Part shown: positions 4,499-42,890 of the stretch, piece by piece
Numbering within the stretch: the first letter of the stretch is position 1
Layout of the letters: each line of letters starts with the position of its first letter
Source of the DNA: Seiridium cupressi
Taxonomy: Eukaryota; Ascomycota; Sordariomycetes; Amphisphaeriales; Sporocadaceae
Assembly: GCA_036674765.1 (NCBI GenBank)
Contig: JARVKI010000011.1
Span: 558,001-622,000, forward strand
Length of the DNA stretch: 64,000 nt
Direction: 5' to 3'
Notes under the pieces: model-generated
Told to the model about the DNA's origin: nothing
The model's input: only the letters and a program-made list of their open reading frames with translations
Database searches by the model: none
Translations under genes and position numbers: made by a program

Positions 4499-6108
4499 GT
4501 GGTTCAACATCGGTCGACTTTGCTCGAAACTCGCAGGGTTAGGAAGAAACCGAAATGGAACCACGAGGTTGGCCATACTACCAACTTTTTTGGTCCACAC
4601 TTTACTCATGGTTGCGCCACTAAAACATCACACATGGTCTCAGCCTTGTGGGCTGAGAAAGCAAGCTGGGGGGTTGCATATTCGTACGATGGCACTGCCA
4701 TGTTTATCGGTCTGACACAAGCACGAAGGAACGAAGTGCAGCGCCTTTTGGAGCTGCCCCAAACTCCGAATCTGTGAGGAATTCACCCGTTGTTCCTGTA
4801 CATTGCCTACTCTCCTTAGACGCGACGCCACAATGCACAATATGCCGGTTCGGCACCACGACCTGACCGTTGCTCGAGCGAAGCCGTATGCTCGTTCTTG
4901 CGCCTGCTTGCTTTTCCCGGCTCGCATTGCCCGAGAGGGTAGTGGGGGTGTCAGAGTTGCAGAATAGGACTGCCAGCGTTTTGGGCCATTGACCCAATAC
5001 TTTTCAGCCGAGGAAGGCAGGAAGAAGGGGGATGAATTTCATTGCTTCTTCTGCGAACAGATTGCTAGTTCCGTGCTTTCCCGTCAGTTTCATGTAGACT
5101 CAGGGGTAAGTTGTGATAGTGGCAAATATGGCGACTGCCGAATGTGTTGCAGCTTATTGCAAGATACGGGAAATGCAGCCTCCGCTGCATTTCTCAGGAT
5201 CGATATTGCTCAATTTATTGCCTTGCCTCTTGCTGAGTTCATGTGCCGTTCCTCCCAGCTCTCCGCGGAAACTCTGAAATCAGGCATTGTCTGCTATTAT
5301 TCACCTCGAACATATCCCGCGGCCGTCCGGATAGGTTTTCCATTGCAAGTTGTCGAAGACTGGAGTTGTGTTGGGCATGAAGCTGCGAAAAAAAATACCT
5401 CTAACGGTAGATTGGTTTGACCCCTTGCGTTGCGCACGTCCGCTCGATTTTGAGCAGGCGCCGCATCCCGTCAAATTCCTAGAACTGCAGGCCGTAGAGG
5501 AGGCCCAACTGGCTTGAACGAGCCTCTTTAGTGGCTTCGATCGGTTGTTTTCGGCTGGGTGCAAAGCTTAAAGATTTGGACGGACGAATAGCTACCTACC
5601 GCTACAAAAGTAATGCCTCACTACCGTGACGCAAGTGTGTCACATCGCGTGCGAGTTCCTGCTTCTTGGGAGGCCCGTATGTTGTTGATTCGCACTCGAG
5701 AGATCGGGTAGACTTCAAGCGCCAAGCTCCTCGTGCCTATCAGCGGCAGCCACGTAACTCGACGTTTGAGGGAAGGGTTCGTTAAAATTGGGCCCAGAAA
5801 GGTAGGCCATTGATCTTCCTGGACACATACCGTCCTTGGCAGTGGTCTGCTCCGCTCCGGACAGTATAGCCTTGGACGTTCAGGCCGTATCCGTGGGGAA
5901 AATACTATACTTGAGCCAAATTGGGTTATCTCACACCGGGCACTACAACTACTGGTCGGCCACCAGCCCAAAAAATGAGGCGTACGCCGGACTAACACTG
6001 TCGAGATCTTCGTTAGTTCATGATGAGTGTAGAGGCCGTGTGGAGATGGGCCGCCGAAAGAACTAGTGGCAACGCTTGCAAGAAGCGTCCGTGGAAGGCG
6101 CTGGAGAA

Positions 6109-6122
6109 GGGGGGGGGGGGGG
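6109..6122. repeat. Poly-G run (G14)
   Basis: Fourteen consecutive G residues on the plus strand in non-coding DNA. Its length is likely to vary and may be a sequencing or assembly soft spot. Confidence 0.9.
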
Positions 6123-8920
6123 ATTTCGTGGTCCGCCTCGTCACAACGTTTCTGTGTGAACTCCAACAGCATGCACGCTATATAGCTGAGACCTTCCGTT
6201 TCTTGGCCCATGAAAGAAGACAACTTCTCTCTCAAAAGTATGTGGTAATAGTTGTCGACGTCCTTGTTTCATCAATGTCTGCGCACGGAGAACATGTAGC
6301 TGGACGCGTCTTTGAAAGAAGACAAATTTCCGTTCCGGATTGAGAAAGATCCACAGCCGTTACTTGTCGGCTGTCAGAGTTCACGCCAGTTCTACTCTAC
6401 CCCATACAATTAGATCCTGAAGCGCGACTTCCGGTGCCTATTACTGTAACTCTAGGTCCAAGAACCTAGCTTGCATGAATCCTGAGGTTTTGAGTCAGCG
6501 TTGGCCTGTTCATTTTACTCCCCCAGCCCCTTTCGAGGAATGAATTCTTGAATAAACACAAGTCCACTAGATTAGCTTCTTTGAAACACGACGGCGCCTC
6601 CGAAAAGTCGGGATGATCGTTGTGCGGAACCCCGTTGGAGTGGGGCCGGCATAGTATGTTTGCTTTGGGAGGAGAGAAAGACGGTGCAGTAGGATTTGGG
6701 TTCTCAAGGCCTGACCTTAAGAGTTTGGACCTCGGGCTTGGACTCTAGCACTGCGGGTACATCCTAACAATAGCAAAACATAGTGCAGACCAGGTACCGC
6801 AGACATGCCTCAGCCTCTGTCACTTCCTGCTCTACACAGGGGACAATGGCTCGAGAGCATCCTCGAAGGATGGCGCCGTCGTCTATCATGGGTAGCGCTT
6901 CCGGCTACGGCTGCCGAGTCTTGCCGCACACGATTCTTGGTCCTAGGTGTCCCGAGTTGTTGGGGATGGCCCATGAGGAGGGAAATTACCAGTCGTCGCT
7001 GTTCCCTTGCAGCTTTTCTAGCTTCCTCATGCACAGCAGATGGACAAAAGGGTGTATGTATACAACGCTCTCCGAACAGGAATCAACCATCCAGGGATTA
7101 CGTTGCAGGCAGCCGCTGCCACCAAGTCCTTAGGTTCTGCAAGGGGATTGGCGTCCGATTTCATACATACCTGTACGCATGAGAAGCGCAACACGTGCAG
7201 CTGGACAAGGCAACACGCAACCGCTAGATCTGCGGAGGGATCTGAGTTGGCAGGCGTCGAAGGCGTCCAATGGCAAGCCTGTCCGAGATGGGAGATGGTT
7301 GGTCTCGGGCTTTGGACATCGAAATACCTACCTAGCACTAGTCCCTTGTTCTATGACGGTCCCCTTATCTAAGTTGTGACACGCAGGAAGCCTTGCCATA
7401 GTTGGGCCGTGCTTGCATTGCGCTGTTTCTGGAGACCCTTATTCCATATCCACAGTTTTACGTCGAGGAGCTCAGTACTCATCTGGTTGATACGAGATCC
7501 CCAACCGGGGACTATGACCACTTGAGCCATATTTGACATTTGCATCAAGGATCTGAGCCAACGTAGGCCTGGGGATCCAGGTTCCCCGCATTCAAAGGTT
7601 TAAGCAACCTGTCACCTTCACCGCCATGGATAAAGACTGGACAAGGTGTGGTACCCGAGGACCTGGGTGAGTCTGAACTAGACTTTGTTGTATGTTTCCA
7701 TTTTAGGGTTAGCTTGGGCACAGCCTTTGGAGTATATTCGTCACAAAGTCCTGAGCAGCAGCGCGATAATGGACAGTGGGGGGGGTTTGGTGGTCAGATG
7801 GCGACTAATGTGCGGGCAGAGTGATAGGATGCATTGTCACTTTGAGAGGTTCATACAGAGGTCGATCATAACCCCTACTGGGTTTAACGAGGCTCAGCAC
7901 GTGCCTCTATGCAAACAACAATTGCGCAATATACTGGTAGCGGCGCTGCTTCGCAGAGATGCACAATGGACGCAATGCGGATCCAATGGTATGCAAGGTC
8001 AAGGCATGCATCGGACAACGATGAACGAATACGTGATGTTCGCATTCTGTCCATGGCTGGCTAAGTTGAGGCTGGACAGCGTTGATCCTACTCTTGGCAT
8101 GTACCTCAAGATAATGCCAGCGTTCACATCAGCCATCCTGATCCTTGGAGATCATGAGATGCCATGGCTGCTGAGGCGCCGCAAGTACAGTATGGTGCTG
8201 TACACATACATTACTAGGTGGGCGGACCAGACGGATGGAACGGGACGAGGAGAAACGGCGCCGGCCACCATCACATCAGCTCGAGGGTGCGTCAGCGCGG
8301 ACTGTGGATATCGGCCTGAGGGGTCCTAGCCGGCCGTGGTTTAATGGTTGCTCATTGGCACTGTTGTGGGATTCTTGGCCCGGTCATGGCCGCTTCAAGC
8401 CAGGAGCTAATGTGCATCGCATCGTGATGGGAGGGTGATGGCAGACCAGCGAAGGTTTTCAATTTCCAGCAGCGCCTTTGCTGACATGCACTCGTTGACG
8501 ATGATCAGTACTGAACCAGCACGACTAGGCTGACGACGCCGGGCGCGCATGGAAAAAGAAAGCAAAAGTTTGCAATAGTTGGCCGAATATAGTAATTTTT
8601 CAGGGTCTCCTGTGCCCGAAGCGCACCTGGTCCTTAGTAAAAGCCGATGGGTAACGTTCCGTGGCTGCGGGAGATTGGCATTCGAAACCGAGCTAAATCG
8701 GACAGAAGGAGGGCGGGCTCTTCGATGGAATATTCCAAACCAAGGCAAATGGAACCTGCCATCATTGTGCAGCAGCACAACCCTGCCGATAATCGCCTGA
8801 ACTCCCACGGGTTGGTTCCACAGCCCACGTGTTGGTCACACGTAATCGCCATTATTCGACACTTTTGAGCGTCGTTTCGGCTTGCACCATAGGTAGCTAC
8901 GACCGGTATCTCGCGAGACC

Positions 8921-8956
8921 CATCGCCATCATCGCCATCATCGTCATCATCATCAT
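8921..8956. repeat. Trinucleotide tract (CATCGC/CAT)
   Basis: Imperfect run of CAT and CGC units ending in four CAT units. No coding context is visible. Confidence 0.85.
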
Positions 8957-9680
8957 GACCAGCCCAACCCCGACGGCTTCGACTGGCCTTGCAGCAGTTT
9001 CAAATTGATCACTGGCCGCGAGACTGTGTTTCGACCTGTTCGGTTTCTATTCACGGATAGCGGAATGAGGCGCCATGGAGCCTCCCGAGGTCCCAGCACT
9101 TTTTTTGTGACTCAAGACCCACGACCATTGGACGTTGCGGCCGTGCTGCGGCGCTCTGCGCTCCTGCACTCCTCTTCAAGGAGTTGGCTGTCAGTGCAGC
9201 ACTGCTATTGGGCCTGCCCGCCATCCACTGTCTTGTAACGCGGTCCCGAGCTCAGAGCCCCTCGCCGAGCAACATTGTCAGCGCAAAATGGACTGGAAGT
9301 GCCTCAGATGCAGTCAGATTTGACTTTGCTTTGCAGCAAGGCGCTGCCGGCGCATGCGCACAAGATTGCGGCGCCTTGGGCCTGCCCGTATCTCAAAGCG
9401 CTCGTCATCTGGCCGTACCGGTACAATACAATACGAGCCAGCAAATCCCATCAGCGTTAGCCTCAAGATCACATCCAAGTCGTCCTAGCCAAGGTTTAGT
9501 CCCGTTCCACTACCTTTGACTTGGCCCTTGGTCGGTTGTGTTCTCCTCCGACCCCCAATGCTACCGTCTGCCCCTCATCCACGCGCAACCCTGTTATGCG
9601 AGGGCTGTGAGGGCTGTGACAGCGACCTTGTTGTTACCTGCATACCTGAATGTTCGCTCGCATCTCGTCAACGGCGTGCA

Positions 9681-9720
9681 TACACATACACACGCACACG
9701 CACACACGCACACACACAAA
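9681..9720. repeat. CA dinucleotide microsatellite
   Basis: Interrupted CA repeat with TA and CG interruptions, about 40 bp, upstream of the small gene at 10389. Confidence 0.9.
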
Positions 9721-10067
9721 CGACAAGATACCCGCTCGATGGAAGTCCCCCTGCCGTTGTACCTCTCCCAGCCCGCTAGCCAGTGAAACCCCATCTTCTT
9801 TGTTTCAATGGTGATCGCGGCGGCTCCACGCCTCTGATGCCAATCTCGTTATCCTCGTGACCGGATGGTGCCACACCGCTTGCAGGCCACCTTCATCAAA
9901 TCTAGTCTATTCGCCGACTGTGACGATTGCCTATCGCAATGCCCGTGCTCGCGTTGGGCCACTATCTCATTTCACAATATTACCATGGGGAATATTTTTT
10001 TTCGGACGCTAGCCCCTGACAGGGCCCCCGTCCCCCCATTTGAGAGGTATTGTATACGTGCCCAAGG

Positions 10068-10074
10068 TATAAAG
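10068..10074 (+). promoter_or_regulatory. TATA box of the small Cys-rich gene
   Basis: TATAAAG about 320 bp before the ATG at 10389. Downstream DNA turns C/T-rich, especially 10315-10388, as is usual for a fungal transcript leader. The transcription start would be expected a few tens of bases after the box (inference). Confidence 0.5.
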
Positions 10075-10100
10075 TTGGTGCATCCACACAGCCAACCTTT

Positions 10101-10313
10101 ATGAGAGATCGCCAGTCCCAAGCTTCAGTCACATCGCAGAGAGCATTTAAACCTCCCCCATCCCCCAGCCGGACTTGCCTCAGACCTTTTCAAGAAACTG
10201 CAAGCACCCTTCCGCAATCAACATTGGGCACTCTTGACCTTAATCGACAGACAGTCTATTTGAACATCAGCCTAGCTACCTGGCTAAGCCTTCAAAAGTC
10301 CTCCAACACTTGA
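10101..10313 (+). other. Upstream ORF (70 codons) in the leader of the 39-aa gene
   Basis: This is the first ATG after the TATA box. It opens a 70-codon frame that closes 75 bp before the main ATG. It looks like unselected sequence (Ser, Thr, Pro and Gln rich) with no recognisable domain. If the transcript begins near 10100, the ATG could lie within or just before the leader and would then restrain translation of the main frame. Confidence 0.3.
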
Positions 10314-10388
10314 TTACTTTTCCTCAACGCCCATCTTAGACCCTCACCTCGCCAACCTACTCTGCCACCAACACATCCCTCCGCTACA

Positions 10389-10508
10389 ATGGCCGTCAAG
10401 GAGTATCAACCTCTCGTCGACAGCTGCTGCACTTTCTGCTGCAAAGCTGTCGATTTCGGCACCCACGACTATTGCACCCACAATGGATGCCATCGCTGTC
10501 CGAATTAG
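10389..10508 (+). CDS. Small Cys/His-rich protein, 39 aa, putative zinc-binding micropeptide
   Basis: ATG at 10389 in a good fungal start context (CTACAATGG), stop TAG at 10506. The product is 39 aa with 7 Cys and 3 His, arranged C13-C14-x2-C17-C18-x7-H26-x2-C29-x-H31-x2-C34-H35-x-C37. The core reads CCTFCCKAVDFGTHDYC. There is no signal peptide or membrane segment, so an intracellular metal-binding peptide is more likely than a secreted defensin-like one. Support for a real gene comes from the TATA box at 10068, the long CT-rich leader, the strong start context, and a Cys/His density hard to obtain by chance in DNA that is otherwise non-coding. I do not recognise the family and assign no function. 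Unusually large empty flanks suggest extensive regulation or long untranslated regions (inference). Confidence 0.6.
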   Translation: MAVKEYQPLVDSCCTFCCKAVDFGTHDYCTHNGCHRCPN

Positions 10509-13500
10509 CCAGCAGGGGGCCCGCCTTACCCACTGGCAAGCTCTGAAGCTCTGAACTAGCTTTCAGCTCGCAGCTTCGCCTTACCGGTCACGGTTTCACA
10601 AACTACAAACTCACCCAACACCCCTCTTCACCGAAGGGTTATGCGCAGTTCTAGCATTCGAGCGCCTCGAGCCGTCCCCTCGGGTACATGCGCAAAGTCA
10701 AAAAAAAAAAAATGAGCACCCTCGGGAATCAGCTCTCATTGCACGACTCCGCCTGCCGCTTTACACACCCCGCATGCAAGGCTGAATTGCTAAGAGCACG
10801 GCTTGTTGGCCCTGCATCATGTATCCTGCAGCATCTATGCACTACGATATTGGCCAACACCCACGCTGCTCTCACACCATTTCCGATTATTTCAACAGTT
10901 GCGATACCCCGGTTTTTTTTTCTTTCCCTCTGTATTCATAACGACGTGTAACACTCGTTCTCTGCATAGCACAGCGTTGCTTACATTCCTTGTCCCAACA
11001 CTTGCGGTGTCGGGCGACAATGTCGGAGTTTTTTCCTCCCTTTTCTCTTGGGCAGCGTTTGGAACGGCATCTGGGACATGGGCGCTAGGATTTTCCTACC
11101 TTTCTTGGACTTTTCCTTTGCATACCCCCACTCACTTTGACGATGTCCCCCTCGTGGGACACGTCGCCATCTGTTTGGCTCCGCTTTGGACATGACTACC
11201 TACATATACCTGTCAGGGAGTCTGGTCGCGGAACGGAACGTAACATGGGGGTACATCACACCGAGAGTGATCAAATGGGCAGACATTACGATGAGAATGA
11301 CGAAAAGCGTGGTTGATCACCGGCCAGGGGCGATGGCATTTCCTCTTTACCTTCCTCTTGCACATGGGAATGGGGTCAAAGGGCAGGCCGCTCGCCACAT
11401 GTTTCATGGGCGGATATGGTAACCGATGAGTCGAGCGGTTGGAGATACAAATGGTCTCCACCATATTCAAAGGCGGGCCTTTGGCCGGGAACTCCCTTCA
11501 CGGATCTCTCCTAGGTTTAGCCTTTCACTTCCAGTAAGCCCCTGCTCTGCACGGCAGCGGGTACTCGGTTTGATGAGATATGCAATACATGGTTGTCAAG
11601 TACCCTCTCTTTTCCTGTTTACCGAGTGATTGTGACTTGTCTATAAACAGCGACCTGATCGTCTAGTTCCAATACCCGTTCAACCTTCTCATTGGTCTGT
11701 CAAACACGCTGCGAAGTCGTGTCTCAGCTAAGGAGAGACGGCAAAGGCCGTATACTCCAGTGGGCCTGTGTCTCGCAAGGATCAGCCGTGGATGCCGCAA
11801 TTAATAGCAATGTCTTACACGGCTCGCTCGGCGCTGCGATTATAGCCATTGCATGAATAGAATGGCTTCTCGGCCTTCGCTTGAACGCTGGTCAGATAGG
11901 GCCGCATGCAGGCGTGGTACGGTAGCGAAGTCTGCCCGGCATCACCTGACAACCCTATACGAATTTCGATGTAGACTTACCATATATCAATAGCGAGAAC
12001 CCCTCCTTCCAATACTAAACCCCAACTTCGACCCTTGTCCGAGAGCAAGTGGCACCCCCTGTCACCAGGGCTTAGCCGCAATCGAGGATCCCAAGATTGA
12101 TATGATATGCAGCTACGAGCAAGGTCTGTGTCTATCTGTCCGATATAACCCAACCCCTACCCAATCAGGCTACATATCTGACGTGCTCAGGATATGATAT
12201 CAATATTGAAGATGGGGGTCGGGAGTTTTTGTTTTCTTTTTCCTTATACGACGTGGGACAGGTCAGACGGCACCCGAGCATTTTTTGTGCAACATGGTGC
12301 CTTGCTCAAAGGGGCCCAGGAAGGATAGGCTTGGCGTTATCTCTTTTCTTCACTTGGCGAGACATACATGTACGCGTGCATTTTGGCTCAGCCTCTCTCA
12401 GCAGCGAGCGGACAAGCCAGCAGCAGTGCTACCGATTCTCGGTGTACGTGCAGCACTAGCCTGCATTTGCTTTTCCTTGCCTTGCTCACCTTTTGTCTGC
12501 TGTACCTGATGTTTCCGCTTCCGTGCTGTTCGTACAAGGCCCGGCACATGCGAGCGAAAGGCGAGCGTCAGCCCTGGGAAGGACCATCGTTTACAGACCC
12601 TTGAAGCACACTACACCTACCCCATGCGATCATCACCATCCCACATTGCAGCGACAGGGCATGGCGTGCGTGTTGCGTCCAGGGCGAGGGGCTGCAGGTT
12701 TCCCTGGGCCAGGAAAGAATAGGTCGCGTATGCTAAGGTTATAATCAGTCCACACTGCTGCTCGGACGTCCTGCAGGTGTGTTCGGTAAGGGCAAGTGAT
12801 TGACACGTCTGTGCTTTCTGCTTTTAATCGAGGGTACAGCACCTAAACCTAACCTAAGCATGGCCAGGGGTGGCCAAGAGCTGATCAGTCGAAAAAGAGC
12901 TAGCTACAGCTGTGCCGTGTGCAAGTTCTCCTTGGGCTCAGCAGCGTCTAAATCCACGCTGCTGTGGAGAGCGAACGGGGGAACGATGCCCGGGGACACG
13001 CCGCAAATTGGTTGCAAAAAGATGACATTACACAGATATCATCGTGAGCGGCGGCCCCCTTCGGGCGACAGCCAGATAGCAGAATATCCTCTACGGGTTT
13101 ATCGGCGTTGGCTCTTACCTCCCAATTGAACCCGGAGGGTTATGCCCGTGAGCCCTTCACTTGATGACGGACCATTGGCACGAGACGTTGGTATGCATGC
13201 AAAAGCAACGCCCGACGCAGGATTGCTGAGGAGCCACGGGTGGTCCTTTTTCCCGGGATTGCGATCGGGAGATGATTCTCTCTGCAAGATCCGTTCGCTG
13301 CCGGCCGGGAAATACGCAGTTAACCCCCAGGAATGTGTTTGCCATCTATGTCAGCTCAAGGAGCCCGGCATTTGCGCCCCCCTCATATAGGAATACTACG
13401 TTGACTAGGTTACAGTACATCTTGGGGGTTGCTTCCAAAGCGAGCATTGGCAGACAGACATACAGATAAACAAACAGGCAGAACAGGATGGGCAATGAAC

Positions 13501-15021
13501 AGTTCCGGAGTCAGGTCCGAAGCCCCCCCCCACCATCCCAAATCCACTATGCCTTCTTTCGTCGTTCAAGGCCCTCGAATCGTTGGGAATCGTGGCCCCG
13601 TCATGTCGACTACGAGCGCTACTGTCACCGCCTGCGTTCTGAGGCCGCCGACCACCGCGTGGCTCTGACTCCGTCGAGGAGACAAGTCAAGTAGCAACAC
13701 GTTGGACCAGCAGGGTCTCAGCAGGGTCCCAGCAGGGTCCCGGGGCGGCAGGGCGAGTCACCTTACCGCAAAGAGACTCCTCATACCCCGGCAAACAAGT
13801 GACAGGCCCGAGGCAAGGTGAGCCAAAGCTCAGACCTCACGGTGGACCAAGGTGAGGGGCAGGCCGGCGCGACCAACAGATAGACAGGAACAAATATGCA
13901 CATGGCTCCAGGTGTATGTATGGATTGCTGCGTCTTTGGGCCCCCCCCTTCACCCTAGGTCAGAGCAGTTCCACTATCAATATGCATGCACGTCGACCGA
14001 GAGGTCGATATGAGAGCGTCCTTATGCGTCCTGGCGCGGTCGAGAGTGGAGAAAAGATCGCGAACTGCTCGGGGTCGATCATGCAAGCCTCGCTATCTCG
14101 CAGGTCTGGGCCGTCTGACTGTCAGCCGGGGGGCTGGTGTGTCCATAGGTGAGCTGACTAGTATGGTATATGTAGTTACCCTCAGAGTGAGATGAGCAAT
14201 CAGCAAGGACTAGTGACGCAGTGCAAGCCAGGAGATAGTCATGATGTATACATATCCGAATTGTGGCTTAGCGAACTGCGGTTGGACAACACTAGCAAAT
14301 GCGGCCTGTACAATAATCAAATTGTTTGGGGCCGTTGGCAACTAAAGGTCTTCGCATGGCCGCTGTCGTACCCCCCGAGCACACATCGTGTCCATTCCAC
14401 ATTGCCGCCACGGCGGTGCCACGCGATACCTATGTCTCATATATCACATTTAACACTCAAGGTTACACATGACCACGTTCGGCACTAGCACATCAGCTGT
14501 CAGGCATCTATCTTCATATCGATATTACTCTTTTCGTGGTTAGTCAGAGTCGCCTCTCAGAAATGGTACCCGGCGCGAGAAACAAAGCATACCAAACGCC
14601 TCGCCAGCCCGGAAGGGTATCTAACAATGTTACATCTCAACGTTCCCACCTTATTTCCGTGTTACTTCATATTCCGTCCTCATGTCCATGTCTCCATAGA
14701 AGATGACCAAGGCACTGGACAGAGCGATAGCTGCGCCGTGCGTCATACCCGTGTCTGCGTTCTATCCCGTATTACTATGCCCCCACACGCCCCGGATTTG
14801 ACCTGCCTACTTTCTCCCAGGGAGAATTCAAGATCCTTGCCTAGCATACCGAAACAACCGTGGTGCAGCCGAAGAGTGGCGTGTTGATCGCCATCCAACT
14901 TTTTCAGCTGCATCAGTGATGCCGCGTCTGTGCGTCAAATGTACCTACCTGACCATGTCCTCATCTGCCGAAGTCTCCGATGAATCGGTGGTTGAGGTCC
15001 AGGATTCATTGCAACCATGTC
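10509..15021. other. Gene desert, right part
   Basis: About 4.5 kb between the small gene and EXO70. The proximal part probably includes the 3' UTR of the small gene. ORFs of 60-130 codons (for example 10803-11195, 12285-12509 and 14627-14887) have no domain and lie in overlapping frames. It contains an 11-bp triplicate at 13708 and C- or G-rich short runs. No tRNA-like cloverleaf or transposase fragment was found. Confidence 0.45.
13708..13740. repeat. 11-bp tandem repeat, three copies
   Basis: Three direct copies of CAGCAGGGTCY, the first ending in T and the next two in C. The unit is followed by a degenerate GGCAGGG. Non-coding context. Confidence 0.85.
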
Positions 15022-16980
15022 TTAGAAGAGGGACAGAAAGACGGCAGCGATACTTGACTTGTCGTACTTCACGTACTTGCCCTTGCCCTTGTCGACCTCG
15101 TGGTAGCGGTCCCAGAACCGGTTGTACAGGGGTTCAAGCACTTGTTGAATGTCCTTGGCAAACATGTTTCGAACTTCCCGCTCCATGCTGTAAGTCTTGT
15201 GCTTAACGACCAAGTCGTCAAAACCAGCGTTGAATGCAAGGAATTTGTTCTTGATGCTTTCTTTGTCCTTGCTGCTGAGGCTCTTGAGGACTGAAGCAGA
15301 ATCATTGTTGTTGCCCGACGGAGGCCGCTGCGCCCGATTGGTGTGAATAACATCAAATAGATGCATAGAAAGATCTTTGCAGGCTTCAGTGTACATGGCC
15401 TTTGCCTTCTTACGCCACGTATCCAGAACGCCAAGTCTGCCATCCAGAAGTGGCGCCAGGCCGGATTCTAGGATCATGCGCTCAACGATCGTGAGGCAGT
15501 TCGCTAGGAAGACACCTTGGACCGATTTGCCCTTGAGCAACATCCTTGATTTTGCATCGAGGCCTGACAATAACGCATCAATGGTGTCGGTGCAGTAATG
15601 CGCGAATATCTCCTTGCCGTCGGCTCCGATGTCGAACGAGGCAAGACTTGGTATAGCGTCTGTGCTGCGATTTGCCGCCGCGGCAGACTTCCATCCGCCA
15701 TCTCCTAATGATATCATGACGCTCGATATCGGGCGTAGGAACTCAACCATTGTTTGCAGGCGCTGCATGGTGGCGGAAACAACTGGAATTGGAGCCCCGT
15801 CAGATGGCAAGGCCTGAAGCATGTTCACCTTTTGCTTCGTCTCGTCCAGCAGCTCGGCTAGGGATACCTTGGCCGTCTCTCTAACTGGTTTCAAGGCTGC
15901 CGCCAATGTACCTTTCAGTTCCCCGGTTCGCTCCTCTAAGCTCGAAGCCAAACTGGACATGATCTCGACCACCTCGTATGCTAGGAAGCAATCTGTGCTC
16001 AAGTGTGCCTTGATATGGTTGTTAAGTTCACGGATCGTCCGGGCAAGCTCTGCCATGGGCACCTGAGACGTCAGCTGCAGTACCGCACCCCAGTCCTGCC
16101 TCATGAATATGCTGCAGATGTTCTCATGCTCTGCGACGCACATGCCTTCGAGGGCCTTGGCATACTCGCCGATCCCATTGGTGCCCGCCTTATATAATGC
16201 ACCCGGGCTGGTCTTTTTGGCCGTGTTGACGCTGGCAAATGCCAGGTTCACGAGCGTCTTCTGAAGATATTGGCCGCGGACTTCAGCATAGATCTTGACA
16301 AGTGGGTTTTCGGTGGTAGCATTACTCCCCACATAAGAATTGATCAGGCTTAGGCGGGCGATTTTGTCCTGCGGTATCACAGGGAACGGCTTCCCCTTGG
16401 TAGTGAAGTTCAGAGGTTCGACCGACATCGGTGTCTCCCCCCGTAAGGTCTTATCGAAGTGGTTCTCGAGGGAGCTGTTTCCATTCTGTATCAGCCTCTG
16501 CAAATCGGCCTTGGTCTGTTGGTTCGAGCGAAGGTTGGCGGTTTCCATATTCTGTAGCGCTTTGCTCAGCCGCTGGATTGAATTCAGATAATTGGACAAG
16601 CCAGCCTTGTCTGGGCCCTGACGGATGATCTGTTCCTCATCGTTCTTGGAATCGGCGGGTTGGCGTAGTCGTTCGATGGCTGCGATCACGGCATCGATAT
16701 CTGCAGCGAGCAGCAGCATACGTTAGCATTTGCAGAACAAAAAAGACCCTCGCTTCAGGGGTTACTGACTGTTGCCCAGGACCTGGAGCTTCTTGGTCTC
16801 GCCATTGAGAGGTGCAGAAACGTCGCGCACGCTCTTTCCCGTTGTCTCCAGTCTGCCGAGACATGCTTGTATCTTCTTCGTCAATTGCGCCGTCTTCTCC
16901 AGCCGTGAATTCAGCACGTCCACCTCGGCACGCGCCTCCTCATCAGCCGCATGACGGCCATTCGTCAATCCGACGGCCAT
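15022..16980 (-). CDS. EXO70: Exocyst complex component EXO70
   Basis: Exons 16980..16770 and 16700..15022, intron 16701..16769 (69 nt, GTCAGT..CAG with CTAAC), 629 aa. The splice gives LQVLGN-NIDAVIAAIERLR, which fits Exo70 exactly. The N-terminal coiled-coil (EVDVLNSRLEKTAQLTKK) and the long all-helical body match the family, as does the length. The C-terminal block (EVRNMFAKDIQQVLEPLYNR) is the basic end that binds PI(4,5)P2 in yeast Exo70. The protein tethers post-Golgi vesicles at the plasma membrane for polarised growth and septation. An in-frame ATG at 17184 exists, but the family N-terminus begins at 16980, so the upstream codons are taken as leader. Confidence 0.95.
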
Positions 16981-17815
16981 GACTGCGGTTTGCGACAAGC
17001 AGTATCGTCGTATATGTTGGTGCTGCGATGGGTGCAATGTTCTCGACGGAAAGGTAGTATGAACAGCCGTCCGAGCTGTTGTCGTGCCATGGAGAAGCGT
17101 CCGTTGGGTCGCCGCCAGCGAGTGGGAGCTAGCACAGCTTGGTATGACGGAGTGGGTAAATGCACCTAGCCGAGGATCCCCCAAGTCGAAAATGGCTTAG
17201 CACTAGCTAGAGCGCAGATCAAGATTACATTTGGCGGGGCCTGCAAGTGCCCTTCAGGGACCAGGTCGAGAGCTTGGGGTGCGCCGCAGTGCTTAACTAG
17301 ACTGCCAAAGTTGACATTACTGTACAAGATCAGACGATTCACTTGTATGTATTCTCAACCACCTGGGCACCCCTGCAGGCGACCAATTTCCATGACCTGT
17401 AGGCACTCCAGGCCACCTCGTCCAGTCTAGCTTATTGTCACAAGAAAAGAACAAATAAACATGAACAAAAAAAAAAAAAAAAAAAAAAAAGACAAACGGC
17501 TTGGCTTGGCTTATGACAGTACATAGTCCACGAGTAATAAAACAACTCTCAGTTGACACATGAAATTATTCGCGGCATGTTCACGTAATGAGTGTGCGTA
17601 TAGGCTGCGTCTAGACTGGCCGCATCCAGCATACAACATATACACACTCACCCAAGATCAAGAGATCAATGCATGCAGTTCCGACTCCTTGCTGCCAAGA
17701 TATATAGGTGGTCAATAAGATATATTGCTGATGAAAACGACCCTCGTATACATAAATAAAAAGAAGCTACTCAGTACAGCAACTACCGATTCCAGCCGTG
17801 TCCCGCTTTCGTTAC
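16981..17815. other. Intergenic, EXO70 promoter side and aminotransferase 3' side
   Basis: No coding sequence recognised. It holds the EXO70 leader and promoter (reading minus), the A24 tract, and the downstream region of the aminotransferase gene. Confidence 0.6.
17467..17490. repeat. Poly-A tract (A24)
   Basis: Twenty-four A residues on the plus strand. No retroposed gene body was found next to it, so it is treated as a homopolymer tract rather than a retroposition tail. Confidence 0.9.
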
Positions 17816-19345
17816 TCACAATTTCGACTTCTCCAGGGCTCCGAAATAGTCAGCTACGAGCCTGTGAAGAATACTCACTATTTCTTCGATCTCACCCGCT
17901 GTCGTGTTGTAGGGTGGTGAGATAATAACATGATCTCCATTGATGCCATCGGCCGTTCCCGTTCCAGGATAAATCGCGATGCCATAACCTTCGCTTAAGC
18001 CAAGCTCGGCAAGTCCCATGGCGATACCACAGGACGCAGGAAAGGGCTCTCCAGTCTCTTTGTTTGCAACAAACTCAATACCCCAGAAGAATCCTCGCCC
18101 ACGGATATTGCCGACATTAGGATGGTGCGACAGCTGCTCCGTCAGACGTCGCGACAGGAGCTGACCCATCTTCTGTACATTCTCGAGCAGATGTTCCTCC
18201 GTGATAATCCTCTGTACCTCGAGAGCGGCGGCACAAGCAATGGGGTGGCCTTGGTACGTGTGGCCATGAACGAAGGCGCTATTGGAGGTCACGGATTAGC
18301 TCCTTCCAGAACATGGCAGTGCGTTCGTTTACTTACCCGCTTCCACTAGACAGAACATCGACCACTGCGCGATTGACAAGCACGGCAGCTATCGGTTGGT
18401 ATCCTCCACCTAGGCATTTCCCAAGGGTTTGTATATCCGGAACAACACCCTCTTGCTCCCAAGCATGAAGGGTGCCTGTTCGTCCCATACCACACATTAC
18501 CTCATCCAGGATCAGGAGGGCACCATGTCTATCGCAGACTTGCCTCATGGCCTGAAAGTAGCCCGGAACGGAAGTAACACAGCCGAGGGCCTAAGTACCA
18601 TCAGAGTTGAGAACAGGCGATTTATACGGTGAACTTACAGCACCAACGACAGGCTCTGCGACGAAAGCAGAAACCGTCTCAGGACCTAGTCTTTGAAACT
18701 CTGCATCCAGCTCGCTGGCTAGTCTCGCAACATATGCCTCGTCATTCTCCTCGGTACTTTGGTTTCGATATGGGAAGCATGGCGAAACTCGGGATATGTT
18801 GGTCAACAACATCGGCTCGAACTTCGCCCGTCTGTATACGTGGCCGCCCATGGACAAGCTTCCTAGTGTGGTCCCATGATACGAATGTTGCCGTGCAATG
18901 AAGTTTATCCGCTGGGGCTCCGGTGTTGATTTTTCAAGGAAGTACTGCCGAGCCAGCTTCATTGCCGCCTCCATTGCTTCGGATCCTGGGTCACTGTCGG
19001 CCACGTCACTCCAAAAGCCTATGGTGGGATTTGCTTACCAGATGAGACGATAAGTGCTCGAGACATATGGCCATGTGTTGAGGTGACAAGCTCCTGGCAG
19101 AGTTTCTCGCACACATCGCTCGTGTAAAACACGGTTGAGCAATAGGATATTCTGTCAAGTTGGGCAGCGATGGCTTGTTTCACTCTGGCATCACCGTGTC
19201 CAATGCAAGCGACTGACGCACCGCCCGATGCGTCGATCACTGTCCGTCCATTCTCGAAGGTTAAGCGACTCTTTTCACCACTAGATAGACGCAGGAACTG
19301 GTGCTTCAAGCTGCGGTGCAGCACAGCTGAGGTCTCAGGGTTCAT
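17816..19345 (-). CDS. Class III pyridoxal-phosphate aminotransferase
   Basis: Four exons: 19345..19039, 18985..18639, 18590..18337 and 18278..17816, with introns of 53, 48 and 58 nt, total 456 aa. The junctions restore conserved text: SSG-SEAMEAAMKLA, EPVVGA-ALGC and SGSG-AFVHGHTYQGHP. PLP-site residues are visible: Asp247 in LILDEVMCGMGRTG, which pairs with the pyridine nitrogen, and Lys276 in TLGKCLGGG, the Schiff-base lysine. This is fold-type I subgroup II (omega-aminotransferase, GABA or acetylornithine type). The amino donor and acceptor cannot be told from sequence. An upstream in-frame TAG limits the start to 19345. No pathway neighbours flank it, so its role remains general amine or amino-acid metabolism. 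Confidence 0.92.
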
Positions 19346-34664: not shown

Positions 34665-35849
34665 ATATAGAACAGAATATACAAAGCCGCAATGAGAAAA
34701 AGAAATCAAAATCTAGACTGAAGTCGATTGTAGCCCGCCTGCTTTCGCCATTTCACCAAGCCAAAAAGGTGATCATTGAAATTCTCGGCAACTCGTTCCG
34801 AGTGCACATTCGATGATACCTTATTGAGGATATTTCTAACATGGAACTCCTTAGTGAAATCCGGCTCAAAAACAATACTTTAATTTTCATCGTCTACTGG
34901 CGACTGGAAAGGAACAGGCGCAGGATGGACCGCAGCAGCTTATCTAGGAGTGTATACCGTTTCTCTCGCTACACCGGACATCAAGGGGATCATAGTATTC
35001 ACGTCTGTGGCGCCTGGTCATGACCAGCGCGATCTCATCGATGTCGGCAGTAACCTCTTAAGTGGCATCTAGTGTCGGCTGAACAAACCCACTTCCCGAT
35101 GCAGATGTTGCCTTTGATATTCAACTCAGTGGCGAGAGCGTCGAGTATTTTGGCATCAGATACCATGACAAGGTAAACGTTGTCTTCCTTTTCCCAAGAA
35201 ATTCCCCACACTTGATCACATTTCCAAGGGTACATCAAGGGCTGAATTGATTCTAACTACGCATAGAATTGAGGTAGTAAACTTTTCCCAAAGCGCTTTC
35301 AAATTGTAGTATCGGGGCCACGTCCGCGTCGGCAGCTATAGTGTGGTTTGGCCACATGTCATTGCGCCTGATGCTGCGCGCTACAGCTCTTACCTCTCGA
35401 AAGATGGCAAACTGCTTCACGCTGCTTGCACGCTGCTTGCACTGTGGACTCTGTCACCGTAAGACCGATCGGAACAGCCTACCCTCGTGGGACAGACACA
35501 GCGTGGCTCACATGGGTACACTTCAGAAATGAGTATCGGCCAGGGCGAGGGTCTATTCGACCTGACGGTCGAGAATGTTGATATCCTGATTAGCTCGCCC
35601 GAGTCTGGACGATATATTGGCGTTGCCAGCGCCACCTTCAAAGGCGAGACACTCAGCGGCTACGGACAATGGGAAGAGTTTTGGCTTCCTCAAGTGGCTT
35701 AAGAGAGAACTGTATCAAATGGACAGATGAACAAAAATGGAGGTCTTCGTGGGTCAATTTCTCTTGAGATGGCTTGGAGATGAATCGTTCCTTGGGGTGA
35801 TACAGGGTCGGGCAAGCGTTCGTATCTTATCAGATTGTAAAGAGTAAGC
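34665..35849. other. Relic-bearing intergenic region
   Basis: No confident gene. Two short frames look coding: 35529..35702 plus (57 codons, with GEGLFDLTVENVDILISS and TFKGETLSGYGQWEEFWLP) and 35035..35238 minus (CDQVWGISWEKEDNVYLVMV, then LDALATELNIKGN). Neither could be assigned to a family. They may be pieces of decayed genes. Confidence 0.35.
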
Positions 35850-36476
35850 AGGGCGCCCATGTGTACGTGGATTTTTATCAGCTGTGATGCCGCCTCGATC
35901 TTGCTGCAGGCCATTAGTGGTAGCCTAGCTGCCGCGTCAGAAAATATGACTTTTATGAACGCTGAAAATAACATCATCGCCACCGGTATCGTTTTCCGGA
36001 TGGTCACAATGATCGGGTGCGGTATGTTGGCGGCCGAATACATGTATCGACGATCTTGACACTCGAAACTTGCCCAAAAACACTAACAGTATGACACGAA
36101 ATTTGAGGCGTCGAAGTTACATTTGTTTTATGGTACCATCGTGTTTGCGTACGTCACTGTCTTGAGTAGTTATATCTACAGGTAGGTGGAGGACCTTGAT
36201 TGGGGATTGAAAGACGTGGAGGCTAACATTAAATAGATTGCCAGAAATAGCCAGTAGGTAGGGAAATCAAAAGATGCGAAAGGAGAAGAAGTTCTTGGTG
36301 TCGGATGGACTGTAAGTTATGATCTTTAGAATTTGTTTTAGTGGAAGCTGACTTATTCTGTTTAGTAGGGTTGCTCTGGCCGCTATCGCTCTTGCCGTCT
36401 TCCATCTGGGCTTCTTCTATCCAAGCATGAGGACAGCTCCACCGAAATCAACTGCTGGGACTCGCGTCTCTTCCTA
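35850..36476 (+). pseudogene. RTA1-like membrane protein relic (C-terminal half)
   Basis: Recognisable RTA1-family text in order: SCDAASILLQAISGSLAAAS, NIIATGIVFRMVTMIGCGML, then a TGA at 36057. After a break come LFYGTIVFAYVTVLSSYIYR, with a plausible intron 36181..36236, then a short charged piece, another plausible intron, and VALAAIALAVFHLGFFYPSM before a stop at 36475. These correspond to the last transmembrane segments of a seven-span RTA1 lipid-translocating/exporter-like protein. The first half was not found upstream, and stops interrupt the rest, so it is called a pseudogene. A rearranged but expressed gene cannot be fully excluded. Confidence 0.65.
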
Positions 36477-37130
36477 ATCCAGCGAAATTGCTCTCTAATA
36501 ATTTGCCGAACGTACTCGAAGCCCTTTGTCATATGTCGATAGAAAATACACTATATATACCAAACTAAATTGTTTTGAGCATGGATATAAGCTGAGGCGG
36601 ACGACCCTGTCACATCTATGAATACTTGCAGCGCGAGAGTGAAATTTATATCCATCTACCTAGGAAGAGGATTTGTATCGAGTTTTCTCACAGCTCAGCA
36701 AAACCGCGTTGAAATCGTGGCGTTTTACCTTAATTTGCCTTCTCCAGGCTTTAGAGGTGAAATGTTTCCATAGAAGACTTGGATACATTTTGTGCTTTCC
36801 CCCTGCACGATAGAATCAGTCTTATCTATAAGAGCTGACGATCAACCACGTGGCCACTATCGATTGTCTTATGCGTGGAAATATATTGTCCAGTAGCTCA
36901 ATAAAACTAATGCGACGTGCTCCTTGCTCCTCAACTCCTAAATAGAGGATACGGGTAGCGAGATCGCTCAGCCGACTATTATCTCCGCCTATTCGAATAT
37001 TTAGATACTAGGAACATATACTTGAGATTATACTTGGACCTGGAGTTGTGAAGCTTGACGAGACCTCTGATTGTCCTTGAGTCTGGTAGTGTAGTTTGCT
37101 AATTATTATTTTTTTACGCCTACAGGTAGC

Positions 37131-37560
37131 GCCGGCAGGCCCTCAGGTTCCGGTGAGCGTATCGCTCAGCCGCTGTCACTCCGAGCAGCCAGGGTTTTCC
37201 CTCCTGGACAATGGCGCATAGGGGCTGGATCCGCCGTATCAGTTCGATGAGCTGGCCTAAGGGAGATTTCGGGGCGATGTCGGATGCCGTCACTGGCGCC
37301 GACGCTCAGGTCCACGCTCGTGGACAGGATGCTAAGCTCGGCAGGTAGTGTTTTCGAAGCGAACGCCCAGATGGACACTAAGATCGATACCTAGCGGGAA
37401 TACAGCCTCGTAGGTCTTAGGGTTCACGAGTGTAGTAGCACGATTTAGCCCTACAATATTATCCTTTGAGTTTCGAGAGCAATGGCCACGCACGCGGCAC
37501 CCGCTATATTGGTAGCAACCTTGTGCAGAGCCGCGGTGGTCAGCACTGCTCTCAAGAGAG
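37131..37560 (-). pseudogene. Unidentified protein-coding relic
   Basis: On the minus strand, three frame-broken pieces look protein-like: AALHKVATNIAGAACVAIAL (about 37530-37465), NPKTYEAVFPLGIDLSVHLG (about 37425-37365) and SPLGQLIELIRRIQPLCAIV with VQEGKPWLLGVTAAERYAHR (about 37265-37150). Stops and frame changes separate them. I cannot name the family. Confidence 0.35.
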
Positions 37561-40343
37561 CTGGATGCTTTAGTGACGAAGCAAGGATGACGTCGCGCTA
37601 GACTCTCTGGCCTTTACTTCTTCCCTAGAGTGTTTGGTCGGTTCTGGTGAGAAATAAATGCACCAGATCTGGATCGATTAGATACGAGCTTCGTCCAGTG
37701 GTTGTATTATCACGAGCCTCGCAACTTCGCCAGCTGTACCCGAGCGGTCCATAGCCGCTAGAGACGAAGGGTACTATCTAAGGTAAGAGCATGATTCGAT
37801 TCGGTGAACGCAACGCTTGAAGAACAGTGCAAAGTCTCGTCGTATTCATGACGGCTGTCGGGTCAGCACCTCCTTGGGCCACAGACGGCGGCAAATGGGG
37901 AGACTTGCCTTGACTTTGTGATGCTTGTATTGCCTGTACCCGTGTCTAGACTTGGTATGGGCCTTTATGGTTGTTATAGAGACTTATTCAGTAAGATGGT
38001 GCAATTAAGACTTCATTGTTCGAGCTGAGTTCCATCAGTATTTTACCTGCAGGTAAAGTATTGCCTTGGACAATCTTAAGTATTGATTCGGTCGGTCACT
38101 TGTTAGCGTTCCGCGCCGTTGTGAGCACAGTTGGCACAATCGATAGAAGCGCTTAGAATTTACATTGAATAGCCATTTTCTACCCCTTGTAAAACACGTA
38201 TCCAGTTCCATCATAAAAATCTGTGCAGGGACGATGTTGGCATGCAGGTTGGGGGGTTGAGTCTGGGTGAAAAAGTGATAATCGACCAGGTTGTCATTAC
38301 GCAGCGGCGATGGTGGACTTGAACTTTAGGTAGCAGCAGCTGGTTGAAGGCTCCCTTCCACGGGCTCTATCTAATCGACAGCCAATCGGATGGCTCCCCT
38401 TTATGTAGGACCACCTCCCCCTTGTGGTATCAGACACGTTGAGGCAGATTGTCCGCGGACCATTTGGTTGCAACTTCCATGATTGAAAATCGAACAACCC
38501 CTCAACTTTGTGGCGACGCAGCTCCTGGATTGCAATTATATCGCCGGAGAGGCAATTGCTACACATTTGCTTGTTAGTTTCCTCAACTATGCGCTCGTAG
38601 CCTCTTCGGGTTCGCCGGGGCCCTTTCGCGCCTCTTCACGTATGATCGTACTCCTTCTCTTTTTGCCTTTTCGAAGAAGCCAAGCTGATAAGTTCAGATC
38701 CAAGTTTCACACCCCGCATGGCTGTGGTCGCCGTAAGCAACCATGGCAACATGACTCGGGCGTGATAAGGCGACGGGTCAGACGATGCATCCCCAGCCAA
38801 TTAAGGGACCACGATCGACCTTCCATCTTCGCAGGATGAGATGGCATAAATAGGGCTCGGGCCACAGACCACCTCGGGGGCAAATGCATCTTTGTTTTGG
38901 TCGACTATTGGAAATAAGCTTATCACAATTGCCCTTCCCCGCATAAGGCTCTGCCCCATTGTGGTCTTACACGGGTTCCTCGCCACTCCTACGTGCCAGT
39001 CTTCAATGAATTGAGCAACATGGCCTCACGAAGGCCAGCTTGAGGACTCGAGGTGTATCGTCCCATTGAGCGTCCTTATTACTTGGCAGCTACATGGAGG
39101 AAGTCATCCCACCAGGGCTGCGAGATCATGCGACTCTAAGCTATGTGCATAGCTTCAGTCACGACGGTGGTGGGACGTGGCATTGACGCCCAGGGGGTGG
39201 CGACTGCATTGCTGCGGTTTTAGCTCCTTCAATATCGCCCTATCACCGTGGGTCCCAATAGGTTTCGCGCAAGGCCCTGCATCTAGCATTTCCTCGAACA
39301 GGTCGATCACTCGGAGGTTCCAACACTACCTGCCTCTCAGCCCTCAGGACGACTTCCATGAATCAAGTTCCAGTCCCTGAACACCAGACAGAAATACGAA
39401 AGTAACGCGTTTGCGATCTGAAGCTTTCAACCTTGAGACGGCCAAGGGTGACAATATTTGGGTCACTCAAATGCTAGTTATAATGCGTCTCAAAGGCGGC
39501 AGAAACTCAACTCGTGCCTCGGGTTGCAACATGTTGCCACAGCTCGCAGAATACAGCCCGGGCAACCATTCGAAAGACGAGGGTGTCGGGGAGAGAAACT
39601 TGCTAATTAGTACAGGCTAACATGTCTCTCGCCACCATCATCATTCACACCTATCAATTTCCGCAAAAGAACACTACAGAAATCTCGCTTATATGGCGAC
39701 ACGCTTGGAAAATAACATTGCTATGGAATGTACAAGCCTTAGATGGGCGCCCGTTCGATATATTGCAGTGGTTCGACGCACACACACTGTGATTCCGGGC
39801 AGCCCGTGACACACACTCCTAGAGCGTAACTTACCCGCATGGCGCAACTTAAGATGTTCGATCAGCTAGTGGTGGCGATTATGAAATCCATACAGAATTG
39901 GAGGTGTTTTGGCCCACGGATCGATCCCCATGGCGAAATTCTGCAGCTTAGCTGCCTCCCTCAGGCGGCGTGGCTGGTTCAAAAACTATCATCGTCCGCT
40001 GTCTTGCTTCTTCGATTGCTATTCGTGATCGGAATTATAAGCATCGCGCTGCTCTCTATCTGGGGCTGCCTGGTATATCACTTCCATTACCACTAATAAT
40101 CCTATTATTCCTAACGACACAAATTTGGCTAATTCGAAGCGGACCATTCCCATACAAAGAAAACATCAAAACCAATCGATTTAACATGTCTGTGCGATCC
40201 CATAACGGCCCAGCCAACCAGAATAGGTATATATCTCCGGAGAGAAATGCATCAAAAGCACTGACCCTTCTCTCAGCAACGGTCACGACCGAGGCGGTCT
40301 TGCTCAAGTACGAATCCAGAGATACCTCGACGAGCCTATTCAG

Positions 40344-40664
40344 AACGGCAACAGACTCGTCGCACTTCCCGCAAGGACGGAAGACCCAAAGTCGGCAGAA
40401 AGGCAGGCTGAGATCGAGGCGAGACGTCGCATCGAACTCGCCCTGAGGAGACTCCACTATGCGTGACTCGGGGAACTGTTTGTTATCGTCTTGGGCGTCA
40501 GGTTCATGGATCATGTACTGGCTTTGCTGCTTCTAGATGCCTTTGCTCGACTCGTCATTGGCCTGTTGAGATGCTCTACAAAACGGAATATACTCCTTAC
40601 TTGTCTTGCCCTTGCCCTCGCGAAACCGCTGTGTGGTGAACAATACGTAAGCCACGGCGGATAG
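40344..40664 (+). pseudogene. Possible membrane-protein relic
   Basis: A 106-codon frame reads RQAEIEARRRIELALRRLHY, then one TGA at 40464, then LGELFVIVLGVRFMDHVLAL and LLLDAFARLVIGLLR, with two hydrophobic stretches. The TGA could come from CGA by one C-to-T change. No family recognised; it could be chance. Confidence 0.25.
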
Positions 40665-41920
40665 AGCCGTGAAAGATGTCTAGTGCATAGGCTGTCTCTC
40701 TGGTTGGGTGTCACGTTACGCCTTGCGTTGTACAGCATCTTCCGGTAGAGCTTTGAGAACTGCTTGGCTGGCCTTGAGTGAGTGGAATATCGTCTTAAGT
40801 TTGCCAGAGCTCTGTCAAGTGATAGAGTGGGAGGCCTTGTCACTGGTACACTTGTCTTTGGAGGAATCCGTCGACACCCAGCGGAAGGATGCAAGTTGTG
40901 GTGACCAGCCGTACAGCTGATAGAGCATCATCGTAGATGCAACAAGAAGCCTGAAAACATTCACGACATCTGTCGACGAATATGATTGGATTTGATCGTC
41001 CAATTTCAGGCTGTCGTCGCCGTCGCAGGTCCCTCCCCTCCACTGTGGTGAGTCGCGTCCGCGTCGTTAGCCCCCCCTTGAGCACGTTCTGACTGAGCAA
41101 ACGTCCCAACCACCTCCCCCACGACAAGCAAACATATGGTAGTCCCGTGACACCTAGACAATAGCACAAACCACCCTCCTAGGCACCTCTTAATCCAAAA
41201 TAGGTCATCTTTCTTTCGACCCGCCCATTAGGGGCGGGTCACACGGCCTCTTGGCTGAGTCGGTAGCTTCTCACTCCCGTGCATGTTGTGAACCGTCCTC
41301 CCAGTCCCTGTGAGTAGGTAGTTCAACTTCCACCCTAGTGCAGCTTTCCACTCGCGTCCCAAGTGATATTGAAATCCTGGCCAGGTGCAGATGTAGGGCG
41401 GGGGAGTAGCCCCCGCCTGAACTGTTTTGCATCTTTTACTTCCTTTTATTTTTTTTGGCCCTGCATTCTGCAGCATATTCCTTCATCCATACCTGAGTGG
41501 CTGCACAGCATGTATGGACGGATTACCTCAAGCTCGCCGACTTTTGTATACATGGCGCCACATGTTGATGGTGATAATGCTCTTGGTGCGATTTCAACAT
41601 TCTGAATGACGGCTGTTGGCACGTCGAGGACCTCAAAGTTGATAAACTACTGACATGTCCATACATGAGAAGTTGTCAAAGCCGCTCACGATCACGTAGA
41701 GAATCAATACAGATTTAGGAATCCAAGGAGAGTGGATCAGCTATATGCAACACCACCTAGTTAGTCCTCAGACTCGGCTGATAGAACGGCGATTGAGCAC
41801 CGTCGGACGAAGTGGGCTTGCACATTAAATGATCAAGCCTGTGACTTGGCTTACATATAGAAGCTTGCTCAAAGTGAAAAGGGGGTTTCTAATGGCCGCA
41901 GAATAGAGCATGTTCTGCCT

Positions 41921-41963
41921 TTAGGATGCCTTGAAAAGAGCGCAACTTGCTCATTGGTAAGCA
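41921..41963 (+). repeat. Dispersed repeat, copy 1
   Basis: Matches 56041-56082. Shared core here: AACTTGCTCATTGGTAAGCA, preceded by TTAGGATGCC and an A-rich stretch. The two cores differ by two transitions. Confidence 0.5.
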
Positions 41964-42890
41964 TTAATGGGAGACGCTGTAAGCGGGGACGAAGCCCGTC
42001 AGCCTTCACTCCATAATTGCGATACCCTCAAACTGTAGGTCATGAACGGAAGCAACGGTTTCGGTATAACATTCAGTGGTGTTCTCATAGAATCTCGCTC
42101 ACCTGATATGACCAAGAAGACTATGTGGAGATCACGATATCCTCCGAACGACCTCGCGGAGCTGGTGGGATAAGCGGAGTCACTGAAATTAGTACTATAT
42201 AACTGGAATACTTGTATCTCTTGGAATTAGGTACTGCTGATCCCTTACGTTCACGCTGACTGGTCTACGCGCGATGTCACGAAGGTCAGTCATGCTTCCA
42301 AGGAACACGAATCAATTTGGTGAGTTTTCAAAATGTCGACTGGCATAACTCGAATTGAGCTAAATAGAAGGCAGGGGATAGACAAAAAAGAAAAAGAAAC
42401 AGGAACATTTACCCCTTGAATTACAATGATCAGAGCAACTTTTGTATACGGTGGAGTAAACTATGATCATCTCCCTATTGAACAAGACCTTAGTGATACC
42501 ATATGGCGGTAATTAGCAAGTTAGACTGAGAACAGAAAATGTAAAGGCCCGCCTGCTAAGTATCAAAAGATATGAATACTAAGTTATGGAGTAACAAGTC
42601 ACAATGTTGTCGAAAACATGAACATTTTGGCCATAGCGACTCAACTGTAACTAGAAGGAGGCAGAAGGCGACGTTAAAAAAGACCCACATTAACACAAGC
42701 TCGATTACTCGCATATCGTTCTAAAAGCTTAGGTGCTCCTGCTGACATACATACATGCTCGAGGGCCCGATAAGATAAGCCCAGCGACGTCAGTCCCCAA
42801 AAACTTACAGCCTCGTCCACCTCGACCTCAAGAAATCGACAGCCTTATCGCCTTTCTCACTCCGAAAGCCTTCGTCACAAAGCCACCAAG

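Follow-up and report, generated by a model that had tools for sequence, protein, structure and literature searches.

A conserved cysteine-rich microprotein gene in Seiridium cupressi, the orthologue of Neurospora crassa NCU08013, with a putative metal-binding signature

We identified a microprotein gene at positions 10389..10508 on the plus strand of a 64,000-nucleotide stretch of Seiridium cupressi DNA (hereafter the window). The frame consists of a single exon of 39 codons followed by TAG and is almost certainly a real translated gene. Its translation, 23 relatives and a single match in its own genome identified it as the orthologue of Neurospora crassa NCU08013, and the gene occurs in several orders of Sordariomycetes; the assignment was established by sequence comparison and supported by the neighbouring genes. 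Judging from sequence features, we favour with moderate confidence a stand-alone intracellular protein that would bind two zinc ions and act as an adaptor or regulator of a partner.

Translation of 10389-10508 gave MAVKEYQPLVDSCCTFCCKAVDFGTHDYCTHNGCHRCPN, in agreement with the initial annotation, which had described a 39-codon frame with seven Cys and three His. The Cys and His fraction (10/39) was the highest among the 282 ATG-started frames of 30-60 amino acids in the window. By Lys/Arg minus Asp/Glu the peptide carries a net charge of -1. It lacks any hydrophobic stretch, the maximum 15-residue Kyte-Doolittle mean being 1.15. The TATA box, CT-rich leader and strong start context of the initial annotation were all recovered. 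The sequence TATAAA at 10068..10073 (+), a candidate core promoter element, lies 321 bases before the start codon. The end of the 5′ leader (10300..10388, +) is pyrimidine-rich, with 67-70% pyrimidine in its final three 30-base blocks, and leads into a good start context, CTACAATGG. The sole other ATG between 9991 and the microprotein start is at 10101. It opens a putative upstream frame, 70 codons long (10101..10313, +; predicted), that stops 75 bases before the microprotein ATG and may affect its translation if the transcript starts before 10101. Eleven promoter motif patterns were compared between the 1.5 kb upstream and 300 first-order Markov controls; none was enriched (lowest fraction 0.21), and SYGGRG was rarer than expected (3 versus 8.8).

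The relatives were collected in three protein searches. With the single sequence, all eight scored candidates (E up to 1) from a database of 5.8 billion proteins were relatives, with a best E of 2.2e-15. Later profile searches of the same 5.8 billion proteins returned relatives as 20 of 20 and 23 of 36 scored candidates (E up to 10). Profile E-values of proteins already inside the profile carry little meaning; among relatives absent from the profile when it was searched, 12 scored 3.7e-21 to 1.9e-7 and then three scored 1.2e-18 to 8.0e-8. The combined result was 23 relatives (P0002-P0024), 13 with an organism name: Neurospora crassa (NCU08013, 40 amino acids), Podospora anserina (PODANS_6_1310, 41 amino acids), Cercophora newfieldiana, Thozetella sp., Thermothelomyces myriococcoides, T. 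heterothallicus, Apiospora arundinis, Neopestalotiopsis sp., Xylaria cubensis, Camillea tinctor, Annulohypoxylon truncatum, Biscogniauxia marginata and Daldinia sp. The initial annotation had staked its reading on a conserved frame in close relatives. Such a frame exists at the protein level, with a core that is not decaying, but its conservation is wider than close relatives.

All 13 named species are Sordariomycetes. The three protein searches gave no named match in Hypocreales, Glomerellales or Magnaporthales, orders for which many genomes are public, and this speaks against class-wide conservation unless short genes are unannotated there. Absence outside Sordariomycetes means little, because databases often lack short proteins. 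Among viral contigs (429 pattern stretches) and bacterial and archaeal genomes (144 pattern stretches), two collections that do not hold fungi as such, no stretch was a relative.

The conserved core, CCTFCCKAVDFGTHDYC, comprises residues 13-29 (10425..10475, +). In the alignments it contains C13, C14, C17, C18, H26 and C29, six of the eight conserved residues that could bind metal. Its motif, [CY]Cx2CC[KR]x3FGTHDYC, was intact in 21 of 24 sequences, the window included. The last two conserved Cys lie in the C-terminal CxxCP (residues 34-38; 10488..10502, +). A Cx2C tail followed HDYC in 13 of the 24 sequences, whereas the other 11, as recorded, had none; we read most of the tail-less records as wrong gene models. 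A selected alignment of 14 sequences, including the window, was prepared by leaving out those whose ends looked wrong (P0005, P0008, P0009, P0014, P0016, P0019, P0020, P0021, P0022 and P0024). C13, C14, C17, C18, H26, C29 and C37 were present in 14/14 of this set and C34 in 13/14, tail counts that are favoured by the dropping of sequences with odd ends. The non-ligand residues A20, D22, F23, G24, T25, D27 and Y28 were likewise found in 14/14, and an aromatic residue occupied positions 16, 23 and 28 in every selected sequence. These invariant non-ligand residues point to a fold or a surface, and not to thiols alone. The initial annotation had proposed a CCxxCC...HxxCxHxxCHxC layout, of which the seven Cys and H26 are conserved. 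H31 (3/14) and H35 (5/14) are not, so that the proposed layout is partly peculiar to the lineage and the signature consists of seven Cys and one His. Thozetella has Tyr in place of C13, and P0021 and P0024 have CCSTCC.

The suggestion that orthologues may be unannotated needs correction, as the 13 named fungal records already exist, some as hypothetical proteins. Three of them, from Apiospora, Neurospora and Podospora, are 40-41 amino acids long, and the remaining ten models look extended or mis-spliced. P0006 and P0010 carry N-terminal extensions, P0019 (Thermothelomyces heterothallicus) breaks at DF, and seven named models (P0005, P0008, P0009, P0014, P0016, P0020 and P0022) have unrelated tails past residue 29. 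Over-extended models may be the mark of a minimum-length filter that they survive. Back-translation of the seven long-tailed models supports this reading in part, since an out-of-frame CxxCP was possible in two of them, P0005 and P0009, and impossible in P0008, P0014, P0016, P0020 and P0022. In these five, the true tail could be spliced out or really different. The tails of P0008 (Camillea) and P0016 (Biscogniauxia) resemble each other (SSVTV..GATF); in these two genera, the sequence past the usual stop may be conserved or read through.

In two further relatives, P0021 and P0024, the frame is broken after DFG, where the residues would allow the splice donors G|GTAAG and G|GTATGAG. In P0021, the shifted frame can encode THDYC at a single place, and the preceding codon allows a CAG acceptor. 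CxxCP can follow THDYC after three residues, or alternatively after six. This implies a phase-1 intron of 71 bases with putative GT..AG ends at DF|G. Among 2000 shuffled P0021 tails, THDYC was possible in 14 and THDYC together with CxxCP in two. Back-translation gave no such shifted frame for P0024, which ends 21 residues past the break, or for P0019. A putative phase-1 intron may lie inside this gene of about 40 codons in some lineages, with back-translation backing it in P0021 only. An intron carried by some lineages but lacking in the window would be nothing unusual in the evolution of fungal genes, and it strengthens the coding reading. In S. cupressi itself, a piece of a longer spliced gene was rejected: 5′ splice sites of the forms GTRNGY, GTRAG and GTATG were absent from the plus strand within 10001-10800, and the relatives of 40-41 amino acids stop at the corresponding place.

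Orthology was further supported by gene order. The convergent neighbour is the EXO70 exocyst subunit gene (15022..17184, −), whose main frame (15022-16719) matched Pfam Exo70_C at 4.1e-96 and Exo70_N at 1.8e-21. The frame 16762-17184, in which Pfam recognised no family, is probably its 5′ exon. The next recognised gene (17816..18292, −) encodes the C-terminal part of a class-III aminotransferase (Pfam Aminotran_3, 1.2e-18). The order in the window is therefore microprotein (+), EXO70 (−) and aminotransferase (−). In Neurospora, EXO-70 is NCU08012 (PMC7389182) and NCU08011 is a predicted aminotransferase (PMC8550094). Locus tags in Neurospora are generally numbered along the chromosome. On this side of the gene, the order in the window would thus correspond to that of the tags NCU08013, NCU08012 and NCU08011, supporting orthology.

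The closest known counterparts are NCU08013 and PODANS_6_1310, annotated as 'hypothetical' or 'uncharacterized'. They are 74% and 62% identical to the window peptide, respectively, and within two residues of its length; NCU08013 is in addition numbered beside EXO-70 (NCU08012) and the predicted aminotransferase NCU08011. Both differ from the window in having CCSFCC instead of CCTFCC and no His at the H31 and H35 positions. The tail is CASCPY in Neurospora and has one Cys instead of Cx2C in Podospora. In open-licence full texts, no paper was found for NCU08013, PODANS_6_1310 (Pa_6_1310) or the string FGTHDYC, and the neighbouring tags NCU08010, NCU08014-08016 and PODANS_6_1300 did not occur there, unlike NCU08011. 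The titles and abstract openings of open-licence literature on fungal micropeptides, small ORFs and metallothioneins did not name the family. The view that the family is undescribed thus survives at the protein level, no description having been met in the sources searched.

The synonymous codon choice of the microprotein frame agrees better than chance with that of the window's long frames, with about 59 of 20,000 simulated choices equally good. Its total codon log-odds against background was negative (-5.2 bits in the first version of the model), which we attribute to its odd amino-acid make-up. Around the gene, some 10.5 kb are free of long genes, from the end of an RsmB/F-type methyltransferase frame (4498) to the 3′ end of EXO70 (15022). 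A codon-based scan of both strands of 4500-15020 gave one stretch at 8.6 bits as its maximum, compared with 74.6 bits for EXO70 and 40.4 bits for the methyltransferase as held-out frames, and found no larger frame for which the microprotein would be a leader peptide. The scan is blunt: false stretches opposite known genes reached 10.2 bits, and part of a desaturase gene only 13.9. Other microproteins or weak exons would escape it, as the microprotein gene itself would at -5.2 bits. The interval 4500-15020, which is without strong coding signal, could harbour further microproteins, unannotated RNAs or an extended regulatory region; the region 34665-42890 is also poor in long frames. Rfam gave no match over 4500-15100 at gathering thresholds, and ARAGORN (bacterial code) found no tRNA across the window. 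In the S. cupressi genome (45.4 Mb, 228 contigs), each of three queries gave a single match, which ruled out a repeat or mobile element.

We compared the peptide with known domains and metal-protein classes. With the window peptide and 14 selected members, Pfam returned only RING_ZNF598 (PF25447), with E 0.54 in 1/14. The microprotein shares with RING-type zinc domains the CxxC ... HxxC ... CxxC pairs, and its residues 11-37 weakly match positions 3-29 of this profile; however, the profile is 90 positions long and the match reached 11.1 bits against a cut-off of 27. With this score, and with a loose RING pattern in 3/24 sequences, the window among them, a RING finger (C3HC4) was rejected. The Zn(II)2Cys6 fungal cluster (CX2CX6CX5-16CX2CX6-8C) and the zinc knuckle (CX2CX4HX4C) each matched 0/24. 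The classical C2H2 finger (CX2-4CX12HX3-5H) matched the window via H31/H35, yet only three of the 24 sequences did so, and these His are not conserved. CYSTM proteins carry a hydrophobic segment; the microprotein has no hydrophobic Cys-rich C-terminal segment and no CYSTM Pfam match. Among PDB sequences, the best hits were chance-like, with E 0.55 for the peptide and 1.9 for the family profile. AlphaFold gave no confident structure (mean pLDDT 51.1 with 21 sequences and 50.3 with 14).

Structural metal binding by the microprotein appears fairly probable from this pattern of residues. The eight conserved potential ligands (C13/C14, C17/C18, H26/C29 and C34/C37) are as many as two tetrahedral zinc sites require, and they would suit two sites better than the single compact site envisaged in the initial annotation. 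Two zinc ions would most likely be bound by C13, C14, C17, C18, H26, C29, C34 and C37; pairing as C14/C17/H26/C29 and C13/C18/C34/C37 would be one example, offered as a guess. Held in place by the metal, the invariant DFGTHDY loop would form a partner-binding surface, and the microprotein would be a small adaptor or regulator of that partner rather than an enzyme or simple metal buffer. If metal is bound, we give this adaptor or regulator role an even chance, and it may equally be called a guess.

A metallothionein-like Cu/Zn buffer, in which the thiols hold a metal cluster and the remaining sequence has little weight, would suit a small, Cys-rich protein (7 Cys in 39 residues, 18%) without a membrane span, features that fungal metallothioneins share. 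We nevertheless consider it improbable. Metallothioneins carry repeated CxC motifs and few or no aromatic residues, whereas none of the 24 sequences contains CxC and the non-ligand residues are invariant. Seven of these lie between C18 and C29, F23 and Y28 are among the aromatics kept throughout the selected set, and the family combines invariant aromatic and acidic residues with one invariant His, which sets it apart from fungal metallothioneins. Metallothioneins are not known to have such invariant non-ligand and aromatic residues. None of the metal-response motifs tried was enriched upstream. Slightly less probable still is a redox or lipid-modified peptide, its CCx2CC palmitoylated or disulfide-forming and serving as a membrane tether or thiol switch. 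The vicinal Cys pairs 13/14 and 17/18, present in all selected sequences, are what such a peptide would need, but H26 is conserved as strictly as the cysteines and stands in an HxxC pair, and the hydrophobic segment seen in CYSTM proteins is missing.

The peptide is short and strongly conserved and follows a leader with a TATA box, as might a regulatory upstream frame of the arginine-attenuator type, whose peptide would control translation of a coding sequence further along its mRNA. This reading is very unlikely. The coding signal does not exceed 8.6 bits on either strand of 4500-15020, although the scan could overlook a weak or multi-exon gene, and the adjacent EXO70 gene is convergent. The family also has a conserved C-terminal CxxCP and a probable intron within the P0021 frame, both unusual for attenuator-type leaders. 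That the frame merely reflects the Cys/His richness of non-coding DNA is a negligible prospect. Its size below that of usual annotation and its negative codon log-odds would fit, but this reading is refuted by the conserved relatives, with 23 found, the core in 21/24 sequences and matching neighbours. The preferred reading thus remains a self-contained microprotein, probably metal-binding.

The core is nearly unchanged from Neurospora-like to Xylaria-like fungi, so the gene must matter to the cell, and at 39 residues it has a size that gene finders often miss. It illustrates that conserved microproteins of fungi can stay hidden behind length cut-offs and small introns. More tentatively, and with less than even confidence, the family may represent a self-standing two-metal mini-domain not described before, about 40 residues long and with a fold of its own (CCx2CC - H26x2C29 - Cx2C). 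It would be fixed in several orders of a large fungal class, would serve a larger complex as its dedicated subunit or regulator, and would have gone unseen because annotation cut-offs probably remove it and an intron splits it in some lineages. A true two-metal fold would be a compact domain with a ligand spacing unlike any zinc pattern tested here. The locus number in Neurospora makes the function of the microprotein directly testable.
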